From Oscillatoriales cyanobacterium Centralia_MAG_596 (GTDB taxonomy: Bacteria > Cyanobacteriota > Cyanobacteriia > Leptolyngbyales > Leptolyngbyaceae), in NCBI GenBank assembly GCA_021323955.1, contig JAJPKC010000462.1, positions 1-47,214 on the forward strand: a stretch of DNA of 47,214 nucleotides, written 5' to 3'. Below, in pieces: positions 32,431 through 45,456 of this stretch (position 1 is the first letter of the stretch; each line of letters opens with the position of its first letter). Both the position numbers and the translations under genes were made by a program. The notes beneath the pieces were generated by a model, which saw nothing but the letters and a program-made list of their open reading frames with translations, was not told where the DNA came from and did no database searches.

Positions 32431-33279
32431 ATGTCAGTACCTTCACTGAAAAAGCTTGTGTTACCCGCCACTGTGCTTGCTGGCACAATGTTTTCTTCGC
32501 TCACGGTGCCTCTAGCAGTATTTGGTTCAAGCCCGGTTGATGTTCAACTCAACCAGGAGCCAATTTTTTCTGGAAAATTCAAAGATTTTGCCGCACCTTA
32601 TGTTGGCGTGGTTGGTATTCTAAGCCTGGGAACAGGGGTTGCTGGCGTGGCGATCGCTGGTTGGCAACAATCTTCTCGCAAGTCTGGAAGCTTGGAAGCA
32701 AAGCTGTCCGATCTGCAGCAGGAGCTAAAGGGAAAAGAGCGTCAGCTAGAAGCCGTGATGCTGTCGGATAATCGTCTGCAAGCGCTGGGGCTTGACTTCT
32801 TTCTCCAAGACGAAACCCAGGCGGGCCAGTCAACGCCTGTGGCTCAAGCTGAGTTAGAGCCAGTCGTTGGCCAGTCTAACCAACCTGTTGTTGAGTCTCG
32901 CGTCAGTTCTGCTCCAGCGGCTCCAGCAGGTGCGCCTGACGCAGGGCCAGCAACGGTGCAATCGGTCGTTTCCACTCTGGCTGCTGCTCAAGCTTTTTTG
33001 AGCTTTACCCGGCCTAACGTCGCCGTGAATGGTGCAACTGATGGTCAGTCGAATGCAAAAGAGCCATCCATGAAGGCAAATATTACGCTTCAAGAACTGC
33101 AAGACCAACTCAAGCAGATCATGTCTCAAGTCGAGACCCTGCGTAGTTCTTTAGAATCTGAATCCAAGCCTGCGGTAGCTCAAGCGTATGAACCAGATTA
33201 TACGGTTAACACTTCAGACCCTCTGCATTACAGACCCGTAGCCAGACCGCAGTGGATTGCCCAACCGTTGGCCTCTTGA
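32431..33279 (+). CDS. Hypothetical membrane-anchored coiled-coil protein (282 aa)
   Basis: I do not recognise the family. Two hydrophobic segments are visible: residues about 8-32 (LVLPATVLAGTMFSSLTVPLAV, signal-anchor or signal peptide) and about 56-78 (YVGVVGILSLGTGVAGVAIAGW). A coiled coil follows (about 85-115), then a low-complexity Ala/Pro/Val/Gln linker (about 128-200), a second coiled coil (about 214-245, LQELQDQLKQIMSQVETLRSSL) and a short tail. The layout fits a cell-envelope or thylakoid scaffold protein. There is no clear Shine-Dalgarno sequence before the ATG. It has a 1.1-kb gene-free region upstream and a MITE-like repeat downstream. Confidence 0.75.
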   Translation: MSVPSLKKLVLPATVLAGTMFSSLTVPLAVFGSSPVDVQLNQEPIFSGKFKDFAAPYVGVVGILSLGTGVAGVAIAGWQQSSRKSGSLEAKLSDLQQELKGKERQLEAVMLSDNRLQALGLDFFLQDETQAGQSTPVAQAELEPVVGQSNQPVVESRVSSAPAAPAGAPDAGPATVQSVVSTLAAAQAFLSFTRPNVAVNGATDGQSNAKEPSMKANITLQELQDQLKQIMSQVETLRSSLESESKPAVAQAYEPDYTVNTSDPLHYRPVARPQWIAQPLAS

Positions 33280-33672: not shown

Positions 33673-34428
33673 TTAACGGAGCTGTTGCTCAGGAGACAGT
33701 GGTATGTTGGTCATCTTTTCTTTTATGGGGGGTAGATTGATTGGGGCCGAGTTGGTGGCTACGCTGGCCAAATCCGCTCGATTTCCCCAGCCGCTGCCCA
33801 TCTCACTGATGCTCACGCCCGGAGCCACGGTCTTTCCAGTCGGCAGGCTGATGGCCAGGGATTGTTTTGCCTGTAAATACCACTGACCATCGGCGGCAAA
33901 GCGAACGCTGCCACCCTCCAGCTTTTTGCCCTCTTTTTCCAGGGTTTGTGTCAAAGATTTAGCCTGATTGCCCGGGTCGATGACCGCAACGAATACGACA
34001 TCAGAACTGGGCTGAAGTCGATTAATTTGATTGTGGCTGAGTTGCCAGGCTTCTTGATACTGGCCATCGGGTGCAACCTGCCAGAGCTTTAGGGTGGCTT
34101 GCCATTGACCCTGCGATGAACTGACGATCTGGCGATCGAGAATGGCGTAATCGGAGGACGTATTAGCGCTCACCAATTGAGTGGGCGCGTTGAGGGGACG
34201 GATTCCCTGGACAATAATTTGGCTGCGATCGGGCAGGTTGGTGTGGCCAGAGACAATATAGGTTCCGGGACGATTGGTCGGCTCTACGTTTAGACTCAGT
34301 TCGACTTTGGACGACCGCTCTTGTGTGCAGCCAACGATTGATAGCACCAGGGCCAGTGCCCCGATGGATGCAAAGCAATGTCGCACAGAACGATTAAGCG
34401 CGTACTGCCGTGGTGTTAGAGCAGCCAT
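33673..34428 (-). CDS. Predicted lipoprotein (251 aa)
   Basis: With ATG 34428 as start, the protein has a basic N-terminus, a hydrophobic helix (FASIGALALVLS) and lipobox SIVGC with Cys34, so it is predicted to be a lipid-anchored envelope protein. GAGG sits about 6 nt upstream of this ATG, and I reject the track's 34473 start. The mature part is beta-rich (VELSLNVEPTNRPGTYIVSGHTNLPD, WQATLKLWQV), like an Ig-like or carbohydrate-associated fold. No enzyme motif was recognised. It is divergent from the cellulose operon across 424 nt, which hints at a shared control region and a possible envelope role with cellulose export. This is inference only. Confidence 0.75.
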   Translation of the reverse strand: MAALTPRQYALNRSVRHCFASIGALALVLSIVGCTQERSSKVELSLNVEPTNRPGTYIVSGHTNLPDRSQIIVQGIRPLNAPTQLVSANTSSDYAILDRQIVSSSQGQWQATLKLWQVAPDGQYQEAWQLSHNQINRLQPSSDVVFVAVIDPGNQAKSLTQTLEKEGKKLEGGSVRFAADGQWYLQAKQSLAISLPTGKTVAPGVSISEMGSGWGNRADLASVATNSAPINLPPIKEKMTNIPLSPEQQLR

Positions 34429-34852
34429 TTTCGCCTCAAGTGTTGGTTTGCTGGATTCTATTACAAAAAACAATTCTTTTACGATTGCTCCGGAGCATAT
34501 TCAAAATAGTCCGTAAAGATTGAACGTGACGATAGTTTTTTGCAACTAAGTGATTGGCAGTCGTTTTATAAAGATTTGATGAAAAGATTAACTACTTTTA
34601 CTGATACCACCGCCAGACCTGGGCAGTTTTTGAACTAAGCGCTTAAGCTGGGGACGAGTAATAAAGCATTCAAAAAAGAGTCCAATTCTTGGTGAGATCA
34701 GTCTACTGAAATTGGTCTACTGGAGTTAGTTTACTGAAATTGGTCTACTGGAATTGATCTACTAATTGGGCGTGAATCGCTATTTTCGGGTGCATCGCGA
34801 TTAATTGACTAGAGCAAGAATTTCAAGGCTTACTAATCGTGGTGTGAATCGC
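34429..34852. promoter_or_regulatory. Divergent control region between lipoprotein gene and cellulose operon
   Basis: The 424 nt are A/T-richer than the flanking genes and hold no acceptable ORF. They must contain promoters for the lipoprotein gene (leftward) and the operon (rightward). The five-copy 14-nt array (34700-34769) sits 84 nt before the chosen start of the barrel gene. A palindromic AAGCGCTTAA lies near 34638-34648. No promoter could be fixed with confidence. Confidence 0.55.
34700..34769. repeat. Five tandem 14-nt units upstream of the cellulose operon
   Basis: The units are AGTCTACTGAAATT, GGTCTACTGGAGTT, AGTTTACTGAAATT, GGTCTACTGGAATT and a decayed GATCTACTAATTGG. Units 1 and 3, and units 2 and 4, resemble each other most, so the array probably grew by duplication of a 28-nt dimer. 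It lies 84 nt before the first gene of the operon and could be a multimeric protein-binding site or neutral slippage. Confidence 0.9.
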
Positions 34853-36661
34853 ATGACCTCTGAGTTTTCGCAGTCTAATCCGCCCACTGCTGCGCCACCG
34901 TGGAAAGTGGGTCTAGCTGGATCGCTGTCGTTATCTACCTTTTTAGCGGTCGGTGTGGCGCAAGCAAAACCAATACCAGATGCACCGCACGATCGCGCGC
35001 CGCGATCGCTGCCCCAGGTGTTGGCCCAGTCACCCAATCGCCTGGCTGATGCCAGCGCGGGTCGTCAGGCCTCTTTGCAGCCGTCAGATACGGCCATTGC
35101 AGCACGGTCGATTGCTCCACCGCAGCTAATCCCGGCGATCGAATCAACCCGTGGTTATGCCAGTGAGGATGATTTGATTCAGCGGGTTACTGGCAGGGCG
35201 ACTGTAGCGCCAGCAAAACCCGTACGGACAAAAACACCGGCGTTTCTGCCGCCATCCTCTGGGACAGCGACCGACAAACGAACTGGGCCAGCCGCGACGG
35301 CAACAGCACCCCAGAAGACGCCGTTTTTGATCACAGCAGGAACCAATTCTGATTTAGATCTGAAGCTCTTTGCCCCGCCGACCCCAGGGGGCTGTGGCGC
35401 GTCTATTTGCGACGATGGGCAGTTGCCAGTTCCCTCCTTACCGCCCTACCGTGTCCAGTTCCCGGCGATGGCTCAGTTAACGCCGCCACCGCCCTATTCG
35501 ACCCTGCCCACTACGGGACTACCGGGTGAAGCCCTGCCGACTGATGCGACCGCTACTGACCCGACGTTGATGCCGATCAACAGTAGCCCTTCCAGCATTC
35601 AGCCGCCCGCATTCCGCACTGCCTCACCTACCCCATTGCTGACGCCTCGACGCACGCTCTTACGGACAACAGCGCTTACCGATCCGTCAATTAAGCTGCA
35701 AGGGGTTTATCTGTATCAGGGGGATGCATCCTCTGCCCGTGCGCGTCTGTCAATTTCCTATCCGTTGACACCGCATTTGCTGTTTGGTGCAACCTTTGAC
35801 CTGACAGACGGTAATGCGTTTGCTGACTCCCAGACGCAAGGGTTTAACGTTAACGAGCTATATTTAGCGGCGTCGTTGCCGGAACTGCCGAATCTCAGAT
35901 TTGTGGTTGGGCAGCTAGACCTGACCTCCTATTTCGATCGCAACAGTTTTGCCAAAGACGGTGCGACCCATTTCTTCAACACAGTCTTCCAGACCAATCC
36001 GGCGTTAAGTGCAACCGGCATCGCGTCTCGTCCCGGCGCGCTGGTGAACTGGACGCTGACTGACAACATTGATGCCAGAGCCGCCGTGTTTTCGTCGTCG
36101 CGCAATCTGGGTGATTTTTCCCTGGATGGCTTTGCGGGTGAAGTCGGTATCCGCTACGGCAACGCCATTATTCGCGGTACCTATGCAACCGATCGGGATG
36201 CCGGGTCGCGGGATGGCTTTCGGGAAATCTTTCAGATTGACCGTGGCAATGGCATTACAGGAACCTTAAAGGGCGATCGCGAAGAAGCCTACGGCATCAA
36301 CGGTGAGCTATTTGTACCGCAGTGGAAGATGGGACTTTTCGTTCGCTACGGGCGCTACAACAACGATGCGCTCAATCGTAGTGCCGAAACCTATAGCCTG
36401 GGCATGAACTTTCTGGACATCTTTGCCCCGGACGATCGCCTCGGTCTGGCCTACGGTCGTGGGCTGTCCAACGACACGCTACGGCGGCAGATTGGCGACA
36501 AGCTGCCTGATGTTCTGGAGTTGTTTTACGACTTCCGATTTCTGCCGAACTTGCGGCTTGGTTTCTCCATTCAGGAACGCAATGAGTTTTCTGAAATTGT
36601 TGCGGGGGTGCGGCTCAAAACCGAGTTTGACGTGACGCCGAAGGGCAAGCTCGTCCAGTAA
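34853..36661 (+). CDS. OprB-like outer-membrane beta-barrel protein, first gene of cellulose operon
   Basis: ATG 34853 gives MTSEFSQSN, then a hydrophobic stretch (VGLAGSLSLSTFLAVGVAQA) with an AQA-type signal peptidase site. The track's TTG 34805 adds only an unlikely 16 residues. Residues about 45-280 of the mature region are Pro/Ala/Thr-rich and probably disordered, with two Cys (GGCGASICDD) that could form a disulfide. The last 310 residues are amphipathic beta strands like carbohydrate porin OprB (LRFVVGQLDLTSYFDRNSFAKDGATHFFN and a final VLELFYDFRFLPNLRLGFSIQ). The usual SLH anchor is absent. It likely forms the outer-membrane exit for cellulose. TPR and cellulose genes follow. Confidence 0.82.
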   Translation: MTSEFSQSNPPTAAPPWKVGLAGSLSLSTFLAVGVAQAKPIPDAPHDRAPRSLPQVLAQSPNRLADASAGRQASLQPSDTAIAARSIAPPQLIPAIESTRGYASEDDLIQRVTGRATVAPAKPVRTKTPAFLPPSSGTATDKRTGPAATATAPQKTPFLITAGTNSDLDLKLFAPPTPGGCGASICDDGQLPVPSLPPYRVQFPAMAQLTPPPPYSTLPTTGLPGEALPTDATATDPTLMPINSSPSSIQPPAFRTASPTPLLTPRRTLLRTTALTDPSIKLQGVYLYQGDASSARARLSISYPLTPHLLFGATFDLTDGNAFADSQTQGFNVNELYLAASLPELPNLRFVVGQLDLTSYFDRNSFAKDGATHFFNTVFQTNPALSATGIASRPGALVNWTLTDNIDARAAVFSSSRNLGDFSLDGFAGEVGIRYGNAIIRGTYATDRDAGSRDGFREIFQIDRGNGITGTLKGDREEAYGINGELFVPQWKMGLFVRYGRYNNDALNRSAETYSLGMNFLDIFAPDDRLGLAYGRGLSNDTLRRQIGDKLPDVLELFYDFRFLPNLRLGFSIQERNEFSEIVAGVRLKTEFDVTPKGKLVQ

Positions 36662-36710
36662 ACCTGATCCGAATTCGACCACAACTATTGCAGTGAGACT
36701 GGTGTAACTC

Positions 36711-39029
36711 ATGTTTCAGGGTAAGCGAACAAAACAACAGCTCAGTGCCATTTGCCTGACCGGACTATTAGCCGGGATCCCACTGGTGCAGCCGCTTGGG
36801 GTGCCCGTGGCTCAAGCCCAGATGGCTGTACCCGCGATTGTCCGCCAGGGCTTTACTCAACTGGCGCAGGGACTGGTAAACGATGCGATCGCCACGTTTC
36901 AGAGTGCCATTCGCCAGTATCCCGATGTGATTGAGGCCAAGCTGGGGCTGGCGATCGCCTATCGGCGGGCAGGACGGGATGCTGACGCCTGGCAGACCTA
37001 TCAGCAGGTGTTGGCGCAAGACCCCAATAATCAACTGGCGCTGAAAACAGTTGGTGTCCTGGGTGGGTTTCGCCCTGAGTGGCAGCAAAAGGGCGTTGAA
37101 GCTCTGACCACGTTGCTCACGCTTAACCCCAATGATGGGGAGGCGCGATCGCAGCGAGCGTTGCTGTACGGCTATCAGGGACAATTTGCGGCAGCGCTGG
37201 CTGATTACCAGATTGTATTGCAGCGAAACCCCACTCCAGAAGCACTTCTGGGCGCAGCGCAGGTCTACACCTACAGCGGTAATTACGCGCAGGGGTTGGA
37301 TCTTTTTAATCGCTATCAGTCCACGGGACGATCCGTGAGTGGCACGGCGGCCATTGCCTACGCGCGCGCGCTGCGTGGAACGGGCAATGCCGCGCAGGCG
37401 ATTCAAATCCTGCAGGCCCAGCTTCCTCGCCAGCTGAACGCCACCGCGATTCAAATGCGATCGGAACTGTCCCAGGCCTATCTGGACAATCACCAGCCAA
37501 CCGAAGCACTGGCCGTGCTGGATCCCCTGCGTGGGCGCTCCGATGCGCGTCTGGCGCTGGCACGGGCACTGAACGAAATCGGGCAGCGCCAAAATCTTCC
37601 AACCTTGCTCAATGACGCGGCTGGGCTGTACCAACAGGCGCTCAGCAGTACTCCCAATCCGTCACCCGTCTTGCTGCGGGAAGCGGCAGATGTGTTGAGT
37701 GGCATTCCGTCGCAGCGTCAAACTGCCCTGCAGATTTATAAACAGCTCGTGCAGCAGCAACCCAACGATCGCGTCCTGGTGCTCCAGACGATGGCACTGG
37801 AAAACCAGCTCGGTCTGCTGTCCAGGGCGGATCTGCGCCGACAGTTGCGATCGCTGCTGCAACCGCTGCCAACCAACCCGGTGGAACAGCAGGCACTCGC
37901 GCGGGTGCTTACGCGCATTGACCCCGACCCCGAACTGCTGCCGATTTATCAAAGTCTGCTGCAGGCAAATGTAAACGAGCCATTTCTCAATTTCCGGCTG
38001 GCGCAACTGCTGATTGAGCGTAATGACCTGGCCGGTGCAAAAGCGGCGATTGCGGCTTATCAGGCAACGTCCGTTGGTGCGGCTGATCAGGCTCCGCAGC
38101 TCTTGCTGGCTGAGATCGAGCGCCGCCAGGGAAATCTGGACGCAGCCGCCCAGCGCTACCAGGCTCTCACCACTGCCAGTACCGCCGATCTGGATGTACA
38201 AGCGGCTGCGCTGCGTGGGTTGGCGGGTATTCGGCTCGCTCAGGGGCGTTCGGGCGATGCGCTCGCCCTGTATGACCAACTTTTGGCCAAAAATCCGCAG
38301 GATCTACAGGTGCAGTTAGGACGAGCCAGTGTGGCCTATCAAGCCGGACGGCTATCGGCAACAGACGCTGAAGCGGTGCTGAATAACTGGCTGCAAGTGC
38401 GATCGCCGAACGATACCCCGCCCGAACTGTATAGCCTGGTTGGCGCACTGCCCGCTTCGCCGCAGCGAGAAGCGCTGTATTCACGACTGATTGAGGCCGA
38501 TCCCACCAATGTCCAGGTGCAGGTGCGTCTGGTACAGGTGCTGGCGCAGCGTGACCCGTATCGGGCGCAGGCCCAAGTGAATCAGCTCCTTGCCCGTGTG
38601 CGAGCAGCCGCGCCCGATCGCGACAACGTGGGGCTTTACTTCCTGCAGGGACAGCTAGCGCAGGCATTAGGCAACCTGGATCAAGCTGGGGCCGCCTACC
38701 AGTCAATTTTGGCGCGGCAGCCGGATAATGCTGATGCTCTGGCGGCATTGGGTGGTATTCGCTTTCAGCAGCGCCGGTTTGACTCTGCCAATGATCTGTA
38801 CGCGCAGGTACTCACCTACAGACCTGACGATGTGGATGCCCGGAAATCTCTAGCCGAGTTATCAGCGGCTCAGGGCAATTCGCTGGAGGCCATTCAGCAG
38901 TTTGAACAGATCCAACTTCAACAAAGCGCAACAGGCAGTGTTGATCCGGCTCTATCGCAACGGGTGCAGAAAATTCAGGAAGGCTTTCTCCAGCAGCGGG
39001 GGTTTCAACCCTACTGGGAGCGCTATTAA
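36711..39029 (+). CDS. Exported TPR protein, BcsC-like without the barrel
   Basis: The 772-residue protein has a signal peptide (about 1-37; LTGLLAGIPLVQPLGVPVAQAQ) and then tetratricopeptide repeats over nearly its whole length, for example GLVNDAIATFQSAIRQYPDVIEAKLGLAIAYRRAG and LDQAGAAYQSILARQPDNADALAALGGIRFQQ. It ends GFQPYWERY. In proteobacterial BcsC the periplasmic TPR superhelix continues into an outer-membrane barrel, which is missing here. The preceding gene encodes a separate barrel, so the two may act as a split BcsC. The gap to the barrel gene is 49 nt and to the cellulase 87 nt, all on one strand. Confidence 0.9.
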   Translation: MFQGKRTKQQLSAICLTGLLAGIPLVQPLGVPVAQAQMAVPAIVRQGFTQLAQGLVNDAIATFQSAIRQYPDVIEAKLGLAIAYRRAGRDADAWQTYQQVLAQDPNNQLALKTVGVLGGFRPEWQQKGVEALTTLLTLNPNDGEARSQRALLYGYQGQFAAALADYQIVLQRNPTPEALLGAAQVYTYSGNYAQGLDLFNRYQSTGRSVSGTAAIAYARALRGTGNAAQAIQILQAQLPRQLNATAIQMRSELSQAYLDNHQPTEALAVLDPLRGRSDARLALARALNEIGQRQNLPTLLNDAAGLYQQALSSTPNPSPVLLREAADVLSGIPSQRQTALQIYKQLVQQQPNDRVLVLQTMALENQLGLLSRADLRRQLRSLLQPLPTNPVEQQALARVLTRIDPDPELLPIYQSLLQANVNEPFLNFRLAQLLIERNDLAGAKAAIAAYQATSVGAADQAPQLLLAEIERRQGNLDAAAQRYQALTTASTADLDVQAAALRGLAGIRLAQGRSGDALALYDQLLAKNPQDLQVQLGRASVAYQAGRLSATDAEAVLNNWLQVRSPNDTPPELYSLVGALPASPQREALYSRLIEADPTNVQVQVRLVQVLAQRDPYRAQAQVNQLLARVRAAAPDRDNVGLYFLQGQLAQALGNLDQAGAAYQSILARQPDNADALAALGGIRFQQRRFDSANDLYAQVLTYRPDDVDARKSLAELSAAQGNSLEAIQQFEQIQLQQSATGSVDPALSQRVQKIQEGFLQQRGFQPYWERY

Positions 39030-39116: not shown

Positions 39117-40367
39117 ATGCGGCTGACTTTTCCTGTTCTACGAATTGTGGTTGGGCTAATCCTCCTGTCGTGTGCGATCGGGGGGTGCCGTGATCATGCG
39201 TCTTCCCAGGCGCAGAATGTCCCCGTTCCGCAGGGGACATCGATCGCTGCTGTGACTGCTCCGATGCCTCCTGGCGTTGCGTCTGAACTGTTGCAGCAAA
39301 GCTGGAATGCCTATCGCCAGCGTTTCATCCAGCCCGATGGACGGGTGATTGATTGGGAAGCCAACGGGCGATCGACCTCGGAAGGTCAGGCGTACGCCAT
39401 GCTGCGATCGGTCTTGATTGACGACCCTCAGACCTTTGGCCGCACGCTGGACTGGGCCGAGAAAAATTTGCGGCGGACGGTGAACGGTAAGCCATCGGAT
39501 ACTCTCTGGGCGTGGCAATGGGGGCCTGATGCCAAAAAGAACTGGGGCATTCTGGATCGCAATTTTGCCAGCGATGCGGATGTGGACGCGATCACGGCGC
39601 TAATCTTGGCCAGTCGCCGCTGGCAACGGCCAGACTACCTGCGTTTGGCCCAAACGAAGCTGCGCGACCTCTGGCTGCTCGCAACGGTGCCGATCGGGGA
39701 TCAGCGCTATCTTTTGCCGGGGCCGAGTGAGGCGTTTCAGCAGCCCGATCGACTCGTGCTAAATCCGTCCTATTTTTCACCCGCCGCGTTTCGGCTGTTT
39801 GCCCAGGTCGATCGCGCCCACGACTGGCTCCGTTTAATCGACAGTAGCTACCAGGCACTCGAAAAATCGGCTGCCCTCTCGGCAGTCAGCCTGCCAAGTG
39901 ATTGGGTGGCACTCGATGGGAAGACGGGGCAGTTCATTGAACTGACTGAGCCGGGGCCGCTCGTCAGTCGCTACGGGTTTGATGCCTACCGGGTATGGTG
40001 GCGAATTGCCCTGGATGGAGCCTGGTTTGGTGAGCCGAGAGCGCGGGATTACCTCCAGCGGCATCTCGGTAATTTGCAGCAGCAGTGGCGATCGCAACAA
40101 GCGATTCCCGCCCAGATCGATTTGCGGGGCAACAAGGCGGCCAGCTACGAAGCCACGGCTCAGTACGGCACGCTATATGCCGCGTTTCGCCTGATTGATC
40201 CAAATACGGCTGAAGAACTTTATCAAAGGAAATTGCTGACCCAGTATCGCAACGGTATCTGGGATAACGACTCGGCCTATTACAGCCAAAATTTGGTCTG
40301 GCTGGGGCTGTTCCCCCCATCGACCGTCTCTGCCAAACTCCTGCAACCTGCTAACGTTACCCAATAA
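39117..40367 (+). CDS. bcsZ: Periplasmic GH8 endoglucanase, BcsZ-like lipoprotein
   Basis: Glycoside hydrolase family 8 cellulases trim nascent beta-1,4-glucan in Bcs systems. The conserved TSEGQAYAML carries the general-acid Glu89. NFASDADVDAITALILASRRW contains the conserved Asp of the substrate-binding loop, and the (alpha/alpha)6 helices run through YEATAQYGTLYAAFRLI. The N-terminus has a hydrophobic helix and IGGC (Cys24), a plausible lipobox, so it may be membrane-tethered, unlike soluble E. coli BcsZ. At 416 residues it is slightly longer than the E. coli enzyme. It ends 8 nt before bcsB, supporting one transcript. Confidence 0.92.
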   Translation: MRLTFPVLRIVVGLILLSCAIGGCRDHASSQAQNVPVPQGTSIAAVTAPMPPGVASELLQQSWNAYRQRFIQPDGRVIDWEANGRSTSEGQAYAMLRSVLIDDPQTFGRTLDWAEKNLRRTVNGKPSDTLWAWQWGPDAKKNWGILDRNFASDADVDAITALILASRRWQRPDYLRLAQTKLRDLWLLATVPIGDQRYLLPGPSEAFQQPDRLVLNPSYFSPAAFRLFAQVDRAHDWLRLIDSSYQALEKSAALSAVSLPSDWVALDGKTGQFIELTEPGPLVSRYGFDAYRVWWRIALDGAWFGEPRARDYLQRHLGNLQQQWRSQQAIPAQIDLRGNKAASYEATAQYGTLYAAFRLIDPNTAEELYQRKLLTQYRNGIWDNDSAYYSQNLVWLGLFPPSTVSAKLLQPANVTQ

Positions 40368-40375
40368 CTCTACCT

Positions 40376-42889
40376 ATGAAACGCTTTCCTCATTGGTTCC
40401 GAGTGCACTCGTCGCGATCGCCCAGCCAACGCCCCAAGTCATGGCCTTTGGGCTGGTGGTTGCTACTCTGCTGTAGCGTTTTAATCACTGGGTTGATTGG
40501 CCCCTCGCTGAGTGGGCAATGGGATGAACCTGCCGTGGCTCAATCGTCTAACGTGCAGAAGCAGGAAGACCAGGTCATTCGGAACTTTACATTGCCCAAA
40601 GCGCCCAGCGAAGCACCCGTCTATCGTCCGGCTCCACCGCCAGCGCCTGCCCCGGTGGAAGAAGCCCCACCGCAGGCTGCGCCAGAGTCCGGTCAGCCCC
40701 CTGCAGAACCGGCAAAAGCCGAGACGAAACCAACGAAACCGACGAAACCGACGACTGACTCGGTGGCCACGAGCCAGTACATTCTGGAGTTTAACCGCAG
40801 TCCGATCGTGGGCAATCGACTGCGACTTCAGGGCGTGTATGCCGAAACTCGACTGGCCTTTACGCGTCCCCGCGATTGGAACCTACAGTCTGCGAAGGCA
40901 TTGATTCGGTTTCAGCACTCGCCAGCGCTGTTGGCCAATCGATCGAATCTGACCGTCCGGGTCAATGGTACGAGTGTGGGCAGTACCCCCCTCAATCGCA
41001 AGCAGTCTCAAATCGGTCAATTCCTGGTAGACATTCCGCCCGCTCTCCTTCAGGATGCCAACGAGATTGCGATCGTGGCGCAGCAAAACACTGACCCAAA
41101 GTGCTCTAACCCCGCGGATCCAATGCTTTGGTCAGAAGTGCTGCCGGACTCCAAACTCTTGTTCAACTATCAGGCGCGATCAATCCCCCTGGATCTGAGC
41201 CGATTCCCCTACCCATTTTTTGACACGCTGGCGCTTGATGCCAGTCGATTGGCTTACATCCGTCCGGCAACCATGAGTGAAACCTGGCTGACGGCAACGG
41301 GCCGCTTTCAGGCTGCAATGGGACGGTTGGCGGACTTTCGCCCGTTGAATACACGCTTTGTGAAAGGGGTCGATGACCTGCAGTGGGACGATCGCCTGAT
41401 TATATTGGGGACACCTGCCGAGCAGCCCATTCTCAAATCACTCAAGCTGCCGTTTGCGATCGCCGATGCACAGATCGTGGATGGGTCAAAAAATGTGCTT
41501 CCGGGTGATGTCGGCGTAGTGATGCTGGCGGCAACGCCGAAGGGCGGCAATTCCATCCTGGTGATCACCGGCAATGGGCCGGAAGGCGTGACCAAAGCCG
41601 CGCAGTTTCTCGTCCAGCCCAAAAATCGTCGCATCGGTTCCGGTCAGGCCATCCTGGTTGATTCGCTGGACGATGTGCCCACACCGCCCGCCCGCCAGTG
41701 GGAACGCGCTTTACCAGACAACAACGCCTTTAAGCTGAGCGACCTGAAAGGTGCTGACAAAGAGCCTTTCAAAGACACGACCGTGCGGGGAACGTCGGCA
41801 CCACCGATCGAGTTTGACTTTCGGGCGCTGCCGGATGACCACTTCACCCGCGGTAGCGCTATGAATCTGGTCTACAGCTATGGGCCGCAGCTCAACCCCC
41901 GGACTTCAGCGGTGGAAGTGTTGCTGGACAATGTCGTGATTGGCGGGAAGCGATTGACCTCAGAAAACGGGGCGACACGAGAATCGTTCAATGTGAATCT
42001 GCCGGAAAACCTCATTACGCCGACCTCCAAGATCGCGATCGCCTTTCGGCTCAACCCACGCGAATCGGGGCAGTGTGGCATCATTACCGATCAGCAGCTT
42101 TGGGGCACCGTACACGCCGAGGACACGAACTTTAAGCTGAACCGGGACAATTCCGTGCAGTTGCCGAACCTGAAACTGCTTCAGGTTGGCTACCCCTTTA
42201 CGGCCCCGCAGGATTTGTCCAGTACGGCGATCATCGTTCCCGACACTCCCTCCGAAACGGAACTGCTGACTATGCTGGCATTTAGCGAACGGTTGGGACG
42301 GCTAAGCCAGGCGGATTCGGTCAAGCTGGGTGTTTACACCGCAGGCACCCTGCCCGATGACGTGCGGAAAGACCATAATCTCGTGGGTATCGGTACACGC
42401 GACAAATTCCCGTTTAATGAAGCCTTTGATCCCAAACAAGGATTTGCGCTGGACAGCTTGTTTTCCCGGATCTGGAATCAGCAAAAAATTCAAACGGTGC
42501 CTGATAAAGGCGGCGTAATTAAGGAAGTGCTGTCGCCCTGGAATGGCGATCGTGTCTTGCTGGCGCTCAGTGGGCAGCAGGCCAGCGGCCTCACAACCGT
42601 TAGAGATGTCCTGGACAAAGACCCCTGGTTTTTCCAGGTAAAAGGGGACACCGTGCTCATCAGTGCAAACCCTGAATCGAACTCGGACTTTGATTCCGAT
42701 GCCTATCAGCTTGGTTTTTTACAGCAAGAATCGCTCCATCGGATCGCCAAAACCGATCCACTCACCGCGATTTCCCGATTTCTCCAGGACAACTGGTTCC
42801 TACTGCCAACGGGCATTATCACCATTTGTTTGCTGCTGTACGGCATTGCTCAACTCTACATTAAGCGCATCGCGGGAGAAACGAAATGA
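40376..42889 (+). CDS. bcsB: Cellulose synthase subunit BcsB
   Basis: BcsB is the periplasmic, membrane-anchored partner of BcsA that guides the glucan chain. An N-terminal membrane/signal segment (GWWLLLCCSVLITGLIGP) is followed by a long Pro/Ala/Lys linker (about 70-125, with KPT repeats), then carbohydrate-binding and flavodoxin-like domains in duplicate (LNRSPIVGNRLRLQGVYAE-type start, and ARQWERALPDN joining the halves). A C-terminal membrane anchor follows (WFLLPTGIITICLLLYGIAQLYIKR). At 837 residues it is longer than E. coli BcsB because of the linker. Its TGA overlaps the bcsA ATG (ATGA), so the two are translationally coupled. Confidence 0.93.
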   Translation: MKRFPHWFRVHSSRSPSQRPKSWPLGWWLLLCCSVLITGLIGPSLSGQWDEPAVAQSSNVQKQEDQVIRNFTLPKAPSEAPVYRPAPPPAPAPVEEAPPQAAPESGQPPAEPAKAETKPTKPTKPTTDSVATSQYILEFNRSPIVGNRLRLQGVYAETRLAFTRPRDWNLQSAKALIRFQHSPALLANRSNLTVRVNGTSVGSTPLNRKQSQIGQFLVDIPPALLQDANEIAIVAQQNTDPKCSNPADPMLWSEVLPDSKLLFNYQARSIPLDLSRFPYPFFDTLALDASRLAYIRPATMSETWLTATGRFQAAMGRLADFRPLNTRFVKGVDDLQWDDRLIILGTPAEQPILKSLKLPFAIADAQIVDGSKNVLPGDVGVVMLAATPKGGNSILVITGNGPEGVTKAAQFLVQPKNRRIGSGQAILVDSLDDVPTPPARQWERALPDNNAFKLSDLKGADKEPFKDTTVRGTSAPPIEFDFRALPDDHFTRGSAMNLVYSYGPQLNPRTSAVEVLLDNVVIGGKRLTSENGATRESFNVNLPENLITPTSKIAIAFRLNPRESGQCGIITDQQLWGTVHAEDTNFKLNRDNSVQLPNLKLLQVGYPFTAPQDLSSTAIIVPDTPSETELLTMLAFSERLGRLSQADSVKLGVYTAGTLPDDVRKDHNLVGIGTRDKFPFNEAFDPKQGFALDSLFSRIWNQQKIQTVPDKGGVIKEVLSPWNGDRVLLALSGQQASGLTTVRDVLDKDPWFFQVKGDTVLISANPESNSDFDSDAYQLGFLQQESLHRIAKTDPLTAISRFLQDNWFLLPTGIITICLLLYGIAQLYIKRIAGETK

Positions 42890-45456
42890 CGAGTCCAGTA
42901 TCTGAAGTTCGGTCGGGACGGCGTCGCGGTAAAGCAGAACAGTTGACATTTTGGCTGACTGAGTGGTTTCCCAGTCGCTTCGATCGCGTTTTTCGCTCTG
43001 TCCACAATGTGCAGCTCTTTGGGCTGGGCGTGTTGCTGCTGCTGCTGTCTGTCCCGTTGATCATGACGCCCCTGGAAACATGGCAGCAGACTATAGCGGC
43101 GATCATGCTGGTGCTTCTGGGTTGGGTCGTTGTGCAGATTGAAAAGCGCTACGGCGATCGTCATACCAGCGAACTGCTCCACCTCTTTATGGTGTGGTTG
43201 AGTCTGATTACTACGTTTCGGTACCTTTACTACCGCGTGAGCTATACGCTCAATCTCGATGGCTGGTTAAACGGTCTGTTTAGCATTCTGCTGTTTGCAG
43301 CGGAACTGTACGCCATCATGACGCTGATGCTGGCGTTTTTTCAGACGCTCAAACTCAAGGATCGCCAGCCACCCGATCTATCGCGGGTGCCAGAGGCGTA
43401 TTTGCCGAAGGTCGATGTCTACATTCCGACTTACAACGAGGATGTGGAAATTGTCCGCAAAACAGCCCTGGGCGCACTGGCGATCGACTACCCAGCCGAT
43501 AAAAAGCGGGTCTACATTCTGGATGATGGTCGCGCTGAAAAATACCGGGCACGGCGAGCAGAACTGCGTCAGATGTGCGAAGACCTCGGCTGCACACTGA
43601 TGACGCGGGACAACAACGACCACGCCAAAGCCGGCAATATCAACACAGCCATGCGGAAGACCGATGGCGACTTGATCTTGATCCTGGACTGCGACCATAT
43701 TCCCACGCGCGACTTTCTCCAAAACACGGTCGGCTTTTTTCAAAACGCCAACGTCGCACTGGTGCAAACGCCCCACTGGTTCTATAACCCTGACCCCTTT
43801 GAGCGCAATCTGCTCACCGCTGGTAAGGTGCCCGTGGGCAACGAACTGTTTTACAAAGTGCTGCAAAAAGGCAACGACTTCTGGAATGCGGCCTTTTTCT
43901 GTGGTTCGGCGGCGGTCATTCGTAAAGACTACGTGCTCCAGATCGGTGGAATTGCGACCGAAACGGTGACTGAAGACTGCCATACGTCGTTTCGGCTGCA
44001 CGCTCTGGGCTATGAGTCGGTCTACTACGACAAGATCATGGTGGCGGGACTGGCTCCGGAGAAATTTTCAGCGTATGTGGGTCAGCAGGTACGCTGGGCA
44101 CGGGGGATGGCGCAAATTCTCCGGCTTGAAAATCCGTTGCTCAACCCCCGGCTGAATCTCACGCTTCCCCAACGGCTGTGCTACTTCAGCGCGACCTCGC
44201 ACTTCTTCTATGGGTTTCCCCGGTTGATGTATGCGATCGCACCCACGCTGTTTCTCCTCTTTGGCATCAACCCCATTCGCGGTCTGGGCCTCGAAACGCT
44301 GGCCTACGCGATGCCGCATATTTTTCTGTCTACCTACGCCAACCACATCACCTATAAAAACGTCCGCTTTACGTTCTGGAACGAGATCTATGAGTTTGCC
44401 ATGTCGTTTCAGGCCGGTATCGTGACTCTGTTGGCGTTGATTAACCCCAAACTGGGCAGCTTTAACGTCACTGACAAAGGGGTATCGGTGACCAAGCGCC
44501 GGTTTGACTGGCAGTCTGCGCGGGGGTTGGTCATTGTCACGATTCTGGTGGCGCTCTCGGTGCTGACGGTGCCACTGTGGTTGATCCTGCGCCCTGAGGA
44601 TACAGAGGCTGTTCTGACCAACATGTTCTGGTGTTTCTTCAATCTCGTGCTGCTCATTTCCGCATTGCTGGTGGCGTTCGAGCAGCCCCAACTGCGGCGG
44701 GCACACCGCCTCGATCGCAAACTGGGTGCCGTAATTTACAGCCAGGGGCAGGAATGGCGAGGGCAGACGCTGAATGTCAGCGAAACCGGCTGCCAACTGG
44801 TGCTGGATAGCTGGACGAATCTCCCGGACGAGGTGGAACTGGAACTAATTGGCGACTATGGCACGCGCGCGTTTGTGAATGGGCGCATTATCCGCGTCAC
44901 GCTGATTAATGAAACCCAGGTGGTGATGGCGATCGATTTTCTAACCCCCAGTCGCGCTCAACTGGATGCACTCAGTCTGGTCATTTACTCCGACGTGCGG
45001 GAGTGGTATTCCCAAACGCGGAATGCCATGGATGACCCAATGGAGTCATTTAAATTTATTGCCACCAGTGTTTCGCGATCGTTCCGGGAACCTCAACCCG
45101 CCCCCAACGCGCCGTTAATCCGAAAACAGATTCGGGCGCTGGCTCAGATCTACTGGGAAGGGCATTTCTACACGGCTGTCGCCACCGAAATTGGCGCTCG
45201 TAGCCTCAGGCTGGAGTTGGAACGTGAGGTGATTCCGAATCTGGAGGCCATGCATCAGACGAATGCTCTCGTGGGGTTACTGCTCAGTCAGACTGGCAAC
45301 GATGCGTTGCCCAAACGCCTGCTGGCGCAGGTACAGTCTGTCGAAACGTTTACCGACGCCGCGGGCAGCAAAATCGCGATCGAACTCAGATTCCCCGAAA
45401 ATCTCCGCGATCGCCAGGGTGGCAAAATTAAGGAACTGGTCGAAACGTTGAATTAA
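42886..45456 (+). CDS. bcsA: Cellulose synthase catalytic subunit BcsA with PilZ domain
   Basis: BcsA polymerises UDP-glucose into beta-1,4-glucan at the inner membrane. Several N-terminal membrane helices precede a GT2 domain with D213/D214 (ILDDG), DCD at 268-270, TED (D364 in TETVTEDCHTSF) and Q400-V-R-W (QQVRWARGM). The gating-loop-like FNVTDKG follows further helices. The PilZ domain has RRAHR (about 603-607) and NVSETG (about 629-634), matching the RxxxR and [DN]xSxxG c-di-GMP motifs, so allosteric activation is expected. A C-terminal extension of about 120 residues (FPENLRDRQGG) follows. The 856-residue length is normal. It is the last gene of the operon. Confidence 0.96.
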   Translation: MTSPVSEVRSGRRRGKAEQLTFWLTEWFPSRFDRVFRSVHNVQLFGLGVLLLLLSVPLIMTPLETWQQTIAAIMLVLLGWVVVQIEKRYGDRHTSELLHLFMVWLSLITTFRYLYYRVSYTLNLDGWLNGLFSILLFAAELYAIMTLMLAFFQTLKLKDRQPPDLSRVPEAYLPKVDVYIPTYNEDVEIVRKTALGALAIDYPADKKRVYILDDGRAEKYRARRAELRQMCEDLGCTLMTRDNNDHAKAGNINTAMRKTDGDLILILDCDHIPTRDFLQNTVGFFQNANVALVQTPHWFYNPDPFERNLLTAGKVPVGNELFYKVLQKGNDFWNAAFFCGSAAVIRKDYVLQIGGIATETVTEDCHTSFRLHALGYESVYYDKIMVAGLAPEKFSAYVGQQVRWARGMAQILRLENPLLNPRLNLTLPQRLCYFSATSHFFYGFPRLMYAIAPTLFLLFGINPIRGLGLETLAYAMPHIFLSTYANHITYKNVRFTFWNEIYEFAMSFQAGIVTLLALINPKLGSFNVTDKGVSVTKRRFDWQSARGLVIVTILVALSVLTVPLWLILRPEDTEAVLTNMFWCFFNLVLLISALLVAFEQPQLRRAHRLDRKLGAVIYSQGQEWRGQTLNVSETGCQLVLDSWTNLPDEVELELIGDYGTRAFVNGRIIRVTLINETQVVMAIDFLTPSRAQLDALSLVIYSDVREWYSQTRNAMDDPMESFKFIATSVSRSFREPQPAPNAPLIRKQIRALAQIYWEGHFYTAVATEIGARSLRLELEREVIPNLEAMHQTNALVGLLLSQTGNDALPKRLLAQVQSVETFTDAAGSKIAIELRFPENLRDRQGGKIKELVETLN

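Follow-up and report, generated by a model that had tools for sequence, protein, structure and literature searches.

Many cyanobacteria with classical cellulose synthesis genes probably export the polymer through two separately encoded proteins, an OprB-type outer-membrane barrel and a TPR scaffold, which by analogy with known exporters would replace the fused BcsC, with two further predicted proteins, termed LIP and COIL, as additional parts. The system was analysed in a window of 47,214 nt, the whole stretch of DNA examined, from contig JAJPKC010000462.1 of Oscillatoriales cyanobacterium Centralia_MAG_596. The gene content and order, the strict co-occurrence of the genes, the family of the barrel and the predicted folds are established by the observations presented below.

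The barrel gene (34853–36661, forward strand) was defined by its open reading frame, Pfam OprB, AlphaFold2, Foldseek and family alignments. Its start was placed at the ATG at 34853, since the closest relatives align from this codon and the longer ORF from the TTG at 34805 is not needed. The encoded protein of 602 aa consists of a signal peptide, a disordered Pro-rich linker and a C-terminal 16-stranded barrel. The initial annotation had described a signal-peptide protein with an OprB-like C-terminal barrel and a disordered Pro-rich N-terminal half, and the ORF, Pfam and AlphaFold2 all agree with that description. In the AlphaFold2 model, for which the input alignment held 39 sequences, residues 31–273 are almost continuously disordered (pLDDT <50); "half" is correct for this protein, at ~45% of the chain, and the length of the linker varies among relatives from about 150 to 740 aa. 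The barrel domain (35687–36631, forward strand; residues 279–593), delimited by AlphaFold2 secondary structure and by hhalign to OprB paralogues, contains strands with pLDDT mostly >90. Strands 5 and 6 are joined by a long loop, named L3 by porin convention and predicted to be the constriction loop (35921–36025, forward strand; residues 357–391, YFDRNSFAKDGATHFFN..FQTNPAL). L3 exhibits the highest conservation of the barrel elements (0.916, the others ranging from 0.58 to 0.88). Like its OprB counterpart, it probably constricts the pore, a point against a polymer exit.

The TPR protein is encoded by a separate ORF (36711–39029, forward strand), supported by profile matches and AlphaFold2. It comprises 772 aa with a signal peptide, lacks a conserved lipobox and is predicted to be periplasmic; read from the sequence, its signal peptide and that of the barrel protein both end in AQA. 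The AlphaFold2 model (mean pLDDT 87.6) depicts only a helical solenoid, extending over the whole mature length to the last residues, which bears out the earlier claim that this protein ends without a barrel. A fold search returned generic TPR solenoids only. The last 13 residues follow the pattern LxxRGFQPxWERY; this C-terminal signature, LQQRGFQPYWERY in the window (38988–39026, forward strand), represents a candidate docking tail and is the most conserved segment of the protein; seven of its residues are invariant across 42 sequences.

Within the linker of the barrel protein, a conserved short linear motif, SEDDLIQRVTGRA (35162–35200, forward strand; residues 104–116), coincides with a local rise in AlphaFold2 confidence. 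Of 94 linkers, 57 contained a motif of the E/D-x-x-I-Q-Q type and 49 contained PTFNQLLN-type repeats, where shuffled sequences would be expected to give about one in each case. These motifs resemble what a docking segment would carry and would fit a binding of the linker to the TPR protein, although this support is circumstantial because common descent could preserve such motifs in close relatives. Either the linker or the C-terminal tail of the TPR protein could connect the two proteins.

Downstream on the forward strand are located bcsZ, encoding a GH8 endoglucanase (39117–40367; Pfam PF01270, 7.7e-43), bcsB (40376–42889; Pfam BcsB, 2.1e-100) and bcsA with a PilZ domain (42886–45456; TIGR03030, 705.9 bits against a cut-off of 699.1; PilZ, 9e-11). 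In BcsZ, the signal sequence is followed by a lipobox-like Cys, and an apolar run followed by Cys was found in 72 of 79 relatives. The operon encodes the TPR protein and one barrel, with no second barrel. The gene set of a synthase-dependent exopolysaccharide system, namely an inner-membrane synthase with a c-di-GMP domain, a periplasmic TPR protein and an outer-membrane barrel, is present together. A second copy of the operon was identified in the source genome on contig C582 (L062), which retains the barrel-TPR pair and lacks bcsZ; the barrel is likewise present in the bcsZ-less loci L047, L134 and L151. On plasmid pMIC7113.02 of Allocoleopsis franciscana (L154), the barrel-TPR pair stands in divergent orientation to bcsB and a glycosyltransferase gene. 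A Nostoc locus (L115) looks degenerate: its barrel gene continues into a long BcsB ORF, bcsA is split and a TPR gene is missing.

Scanning the GTDB genomes yielded 203 relatives, of which the best 80 were examined for gene order; all of these 80 are cyanobacterial. The initial annotation had suggested surveying cyanobacterial loci for the order barrel-TPR-bcsZ-bcsB-bcsA, and this order was found in full in 61 of the best 80 relatives and without bcsZ in 3. A further 15 of the 80 showed only the leading part, nearly all at contig ends, with L117 continuing into other genes; the one remaining relative is the degenerate L115. No fusion of barrel and TPR in one chain was detected among the best 80 relatives or in the window. 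The two genes overlap by exactly 4 bp in 43 of ~75 adjacent pairs, a frequency that suggests translational coupling; the gap in the window itself is 49 bp. At least seven of the sampled families share the gene set.

Co-occurrence was evaluated in 386 cyanobacterial genomes, with a threshold of at least 560 bits for the barrel family. Full-length BcsB was present in 17 of the 386 genomes, and the barrel was found in 16 of these 17 versus none of the 369 others, the next-best matches reaching about 38 bits or less. Fisher's exact test for barrel against BcsB gave p 2e-27, a value that ignores shared ancestry, and independent events are fewer than such profiles imply. Barrel-negative genomes occur within the same families and once within the same genus (G185 vs G289). 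Lack of conservation with the bcs genes had been named at the outset as a result that would count against the proposed system; the opposite was found. The only genome with full-length BcsB and no barrel, G343, belongs to another class of the phylum, and its locus (L051) contains two adjoining BcsB-like genes, in whose vicinity neither a barrel nor a TPR protein nor a recognised BcsA is encoded. Locus L057, a secondary locus, encodes TPR, bcsB and bcsA, and tblastn detected no barrel relative in this stretch; the other bcs locus of the same genome has the barrel. Weak BcsB-like ORFs of ~665–680 aa in small cyanobacterial genomes (L069, L070, L071 and L072) possibly belong to another polysaccharide system.

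The BcsC barrel domain was also sought. None of the 16 barrel-positive genomes contained a BcsC_C match over the cut-off, and the two genomes in the phylum that did are both outside this set. A full-length BcsC elsewhere in the source genome, the other result named at the outset as adverse, was not found in this MAG (92% complete), which gave a single match of 11 bits. In G338, a BcsC_C match below the cut-off was located in a 427-aa ORF. Five genomes of one family (L186, L189, L190, L191 and L192) encode barrels of 376–466 aa with weak BcsC_C matches, possibly of the alr3754 type; BcsC-type barrels such as alr3754 have been described in five strains, with a suggested heterocyst role (PMC4365693).

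Two further genes, both previously undescribed and located a short distance upstream, accompany the system. LIP, a predicted lipoprotein (33673–34428, reverse strand), is divergent from the barrel gene; its lipobox Cys34 is invariant in 32 members, and no Pfam family matched it. COIL (32431–33279, forward strand) is a predicted two-TM coiled-coil protein, whose hydrophobic segments, two in number, and coiled coil were recognised in the sequence itself; it was assigned to no family, Pfam giving only sub-threshold matches of coiled-coil type. Among the 386 genomes, strong LIP matches were restricted to the 16 barrel-positive genomes, and strong COIL matches to the same 16. In G174, G011 and G215, COIL lies apart from the bcs genes, and its distribution there cannot be a product of shared position. 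In G286, which contains only a BcsB fragment, a weak LIP match adjoins the fragment and COIL is interrupted. Based on these distributions, LIP and COIL are most likely part of the cellulose system as new predicted components. The initial annotation had the barrel, TPR and bcs genes right and missed these two.

The HMM comparison proposed earlier for the barrel matched OprB over the cut-off and left BcsC_C unmatched. The barrel protein of the window matched Pfam OprB (PF04966) with 38.1 bits (cut-off 22.9), and BcsC_C (PF05420) matched neither this protein nor any of 17 members of the family. Only 6 of 17 relatives matched PF04966 at E 0.1, which indicates a divergent OprB branch. Against OprB paralogues from the source genome, hhalign gave the barrel profile 97.3% probability (E 2e-11, 234 columns), versus 0.4% against the BcsC barrel of E. 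coli K-12. The barrel model shows the 16-stranded fold of the OprB family, and Foldseek retrieved 16-stranded porins, including OprB of P. putida (4gey, E 1.5e-12); a sequence search of the PDB with the barrel profile gave no match. Taken together, the HMM and profile-profile results identify the barrel as a divergent OprB that carries the Pro-rich linker in place of the SLH region. The barrel shares its family and the L3 motif with the SLH-OprB porins of cyanobacteria, as illustrated by C671, an ordinary SLH-OprB porin of the same genome with a similar motif (DYNRFANDFDGDPTKNFSSSFFTNNPL). However, C671 has an SLH-like N-terminal region instead of the Pro-rich linker, and the bcs barrel gene, unlike those of these porins, is tied to bcs.

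Among known exporters, proteobacterial BcsC likewise supplies BcsA and BcsB with a TPR solenoid and a 16-stranded outer-membrane barrel. There, the two form one chain, whereas here they are encoded by two genes, barrel first, with a barrel of the OprB family that, unlike BcsC, bears a long disordered linker. Alginate export resembles the cyanobacterial arrangement in having a separate TPR protein, AlgK, and barrel, AlgE, in one operon (PMC9734138). In that system the TPR protein is itself a lipoprotein (PMC9734138), whereas here the lipoprotein, LIP, is separate; the polymer, the barrel family and the synthase also differ. The XcsA-XcsB-TolC model of Thermosynechococcus is similar as a cyanobacterial cellulose export route without BcsC, but it employs an HlyD-like protein and TolC in place of BcsB, the TPR protein and the OprB-type barrel. 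A 2025 review presents this model and calls the mechanism of cellulose secretion in cyanobacteria "poorly defined" (PMC12430437). An earlier survey reported BcsC_C as absent from all cyanobacteria surveyed and did not pursue BcsC further (PMC4594306). No published description of a split OprB-barrel/TPR arrangement was found in the openly accessible literature searched.

Three other explanations of the barrel were considered. The main one, which we regard as unlikely, is that it serves as an accessory porin for cello-oligosaccharides released by BcsZ, while cellulose exits elsewhere, for instance through TolC, or stays between the peptidoglycan and the outer membrane. Since the usual substrates of OprB porins are small sugars, the barrel could be a passage for cellodextrins, and its OprB-type fold and strongly conserved L3 are consistent with this role. 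Cellulose of Synechococcus PCC 7002 is deposited below the outer membrane, and an HlyD-like protein with TolC has been proposed for another cyanobacterial cellulose system (PMC12430437). However, an HlyD gene is absent from the operon, the barrel gene overlaps the TPR gene at most loci, and the barrel is no less obligate than BcsB. Its retention in loci devoid of bcsZ also makes a service to BcsZ less probable.

It is far less probable that the barrel and TPR protein arose by fission and rearrangement of a BcsC gene, the barrel being a diverged BcsC barrel. The TPR protein is a BcsC-like solenoid and the BcsC barrel is also 16-stranded (PMC11379886), but BcsC_C remains unmatched, the profile-profile comparison strongly favours OprB, the barrel gene comes first and its L3 is OprB-like; the HMM and profile tests largely refute this origin. 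The abundance of OprB porins in cyanobacteria, with 15 matches in the source genome, could suggest that the porin and TPR genes are unrelated neighbours of bcs by chance or local synteny. This is barely credible given the 16 of 17 versus 0 of 369 genomes and the persistence of the pair in a second paralogous locus and on a plasmid, and the co-occurrence survey refutes it.

We therefore return to the barrel and TPR protein as the exporter, for which the physical exit role, the protein contacts and the roles of LIP and COIL are inferred. BcsA, regulated through PilZ, would together with BcsB make the glucan and pass it into the periplasm, which the separate TPR protein would cross, and the OprB-type barrel would form the exit in the outer membrane. 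With the barrel as exit and the TPR protein spanning the periplasm, the pair would do the work of the fused BcsC. The barrel and TPR protein may be joined by the disordered linker of the former or the invariant C-terminal tail of the latter. Lipidated BcsZ would remove misrouted chains; LIP would be an obligate part, probably at the outer-membrane end, and COIL an obligate part putatively located at the synthase. In E. coli BcsC, contact with the terminal BcsB is made by the N-terminal (first) TPR, and a putative cello-oligosaccharide is bound by TPRs close to the pore (PMC11379886). A path from BcsA-BcsB through the TPR protein to the OprB-type barrel, as in E. coli and alginate export, would be the simplest reading. 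The more specific proposal, that an OprB sugar porin has been turned into a polymer exit whose linker motifs hold the TPR scaffold, with LIP and COIL obligate and without known counterparts in other cellulose systems, appears to us about evenly balanced.

The system described here offers one concrete gene set for the way of cellulose out of cyanobacterial cells and probably answers the question of its export route. If true, a polymer exporter would here have been assembled convergently, with an unrelated porin as its starting material.
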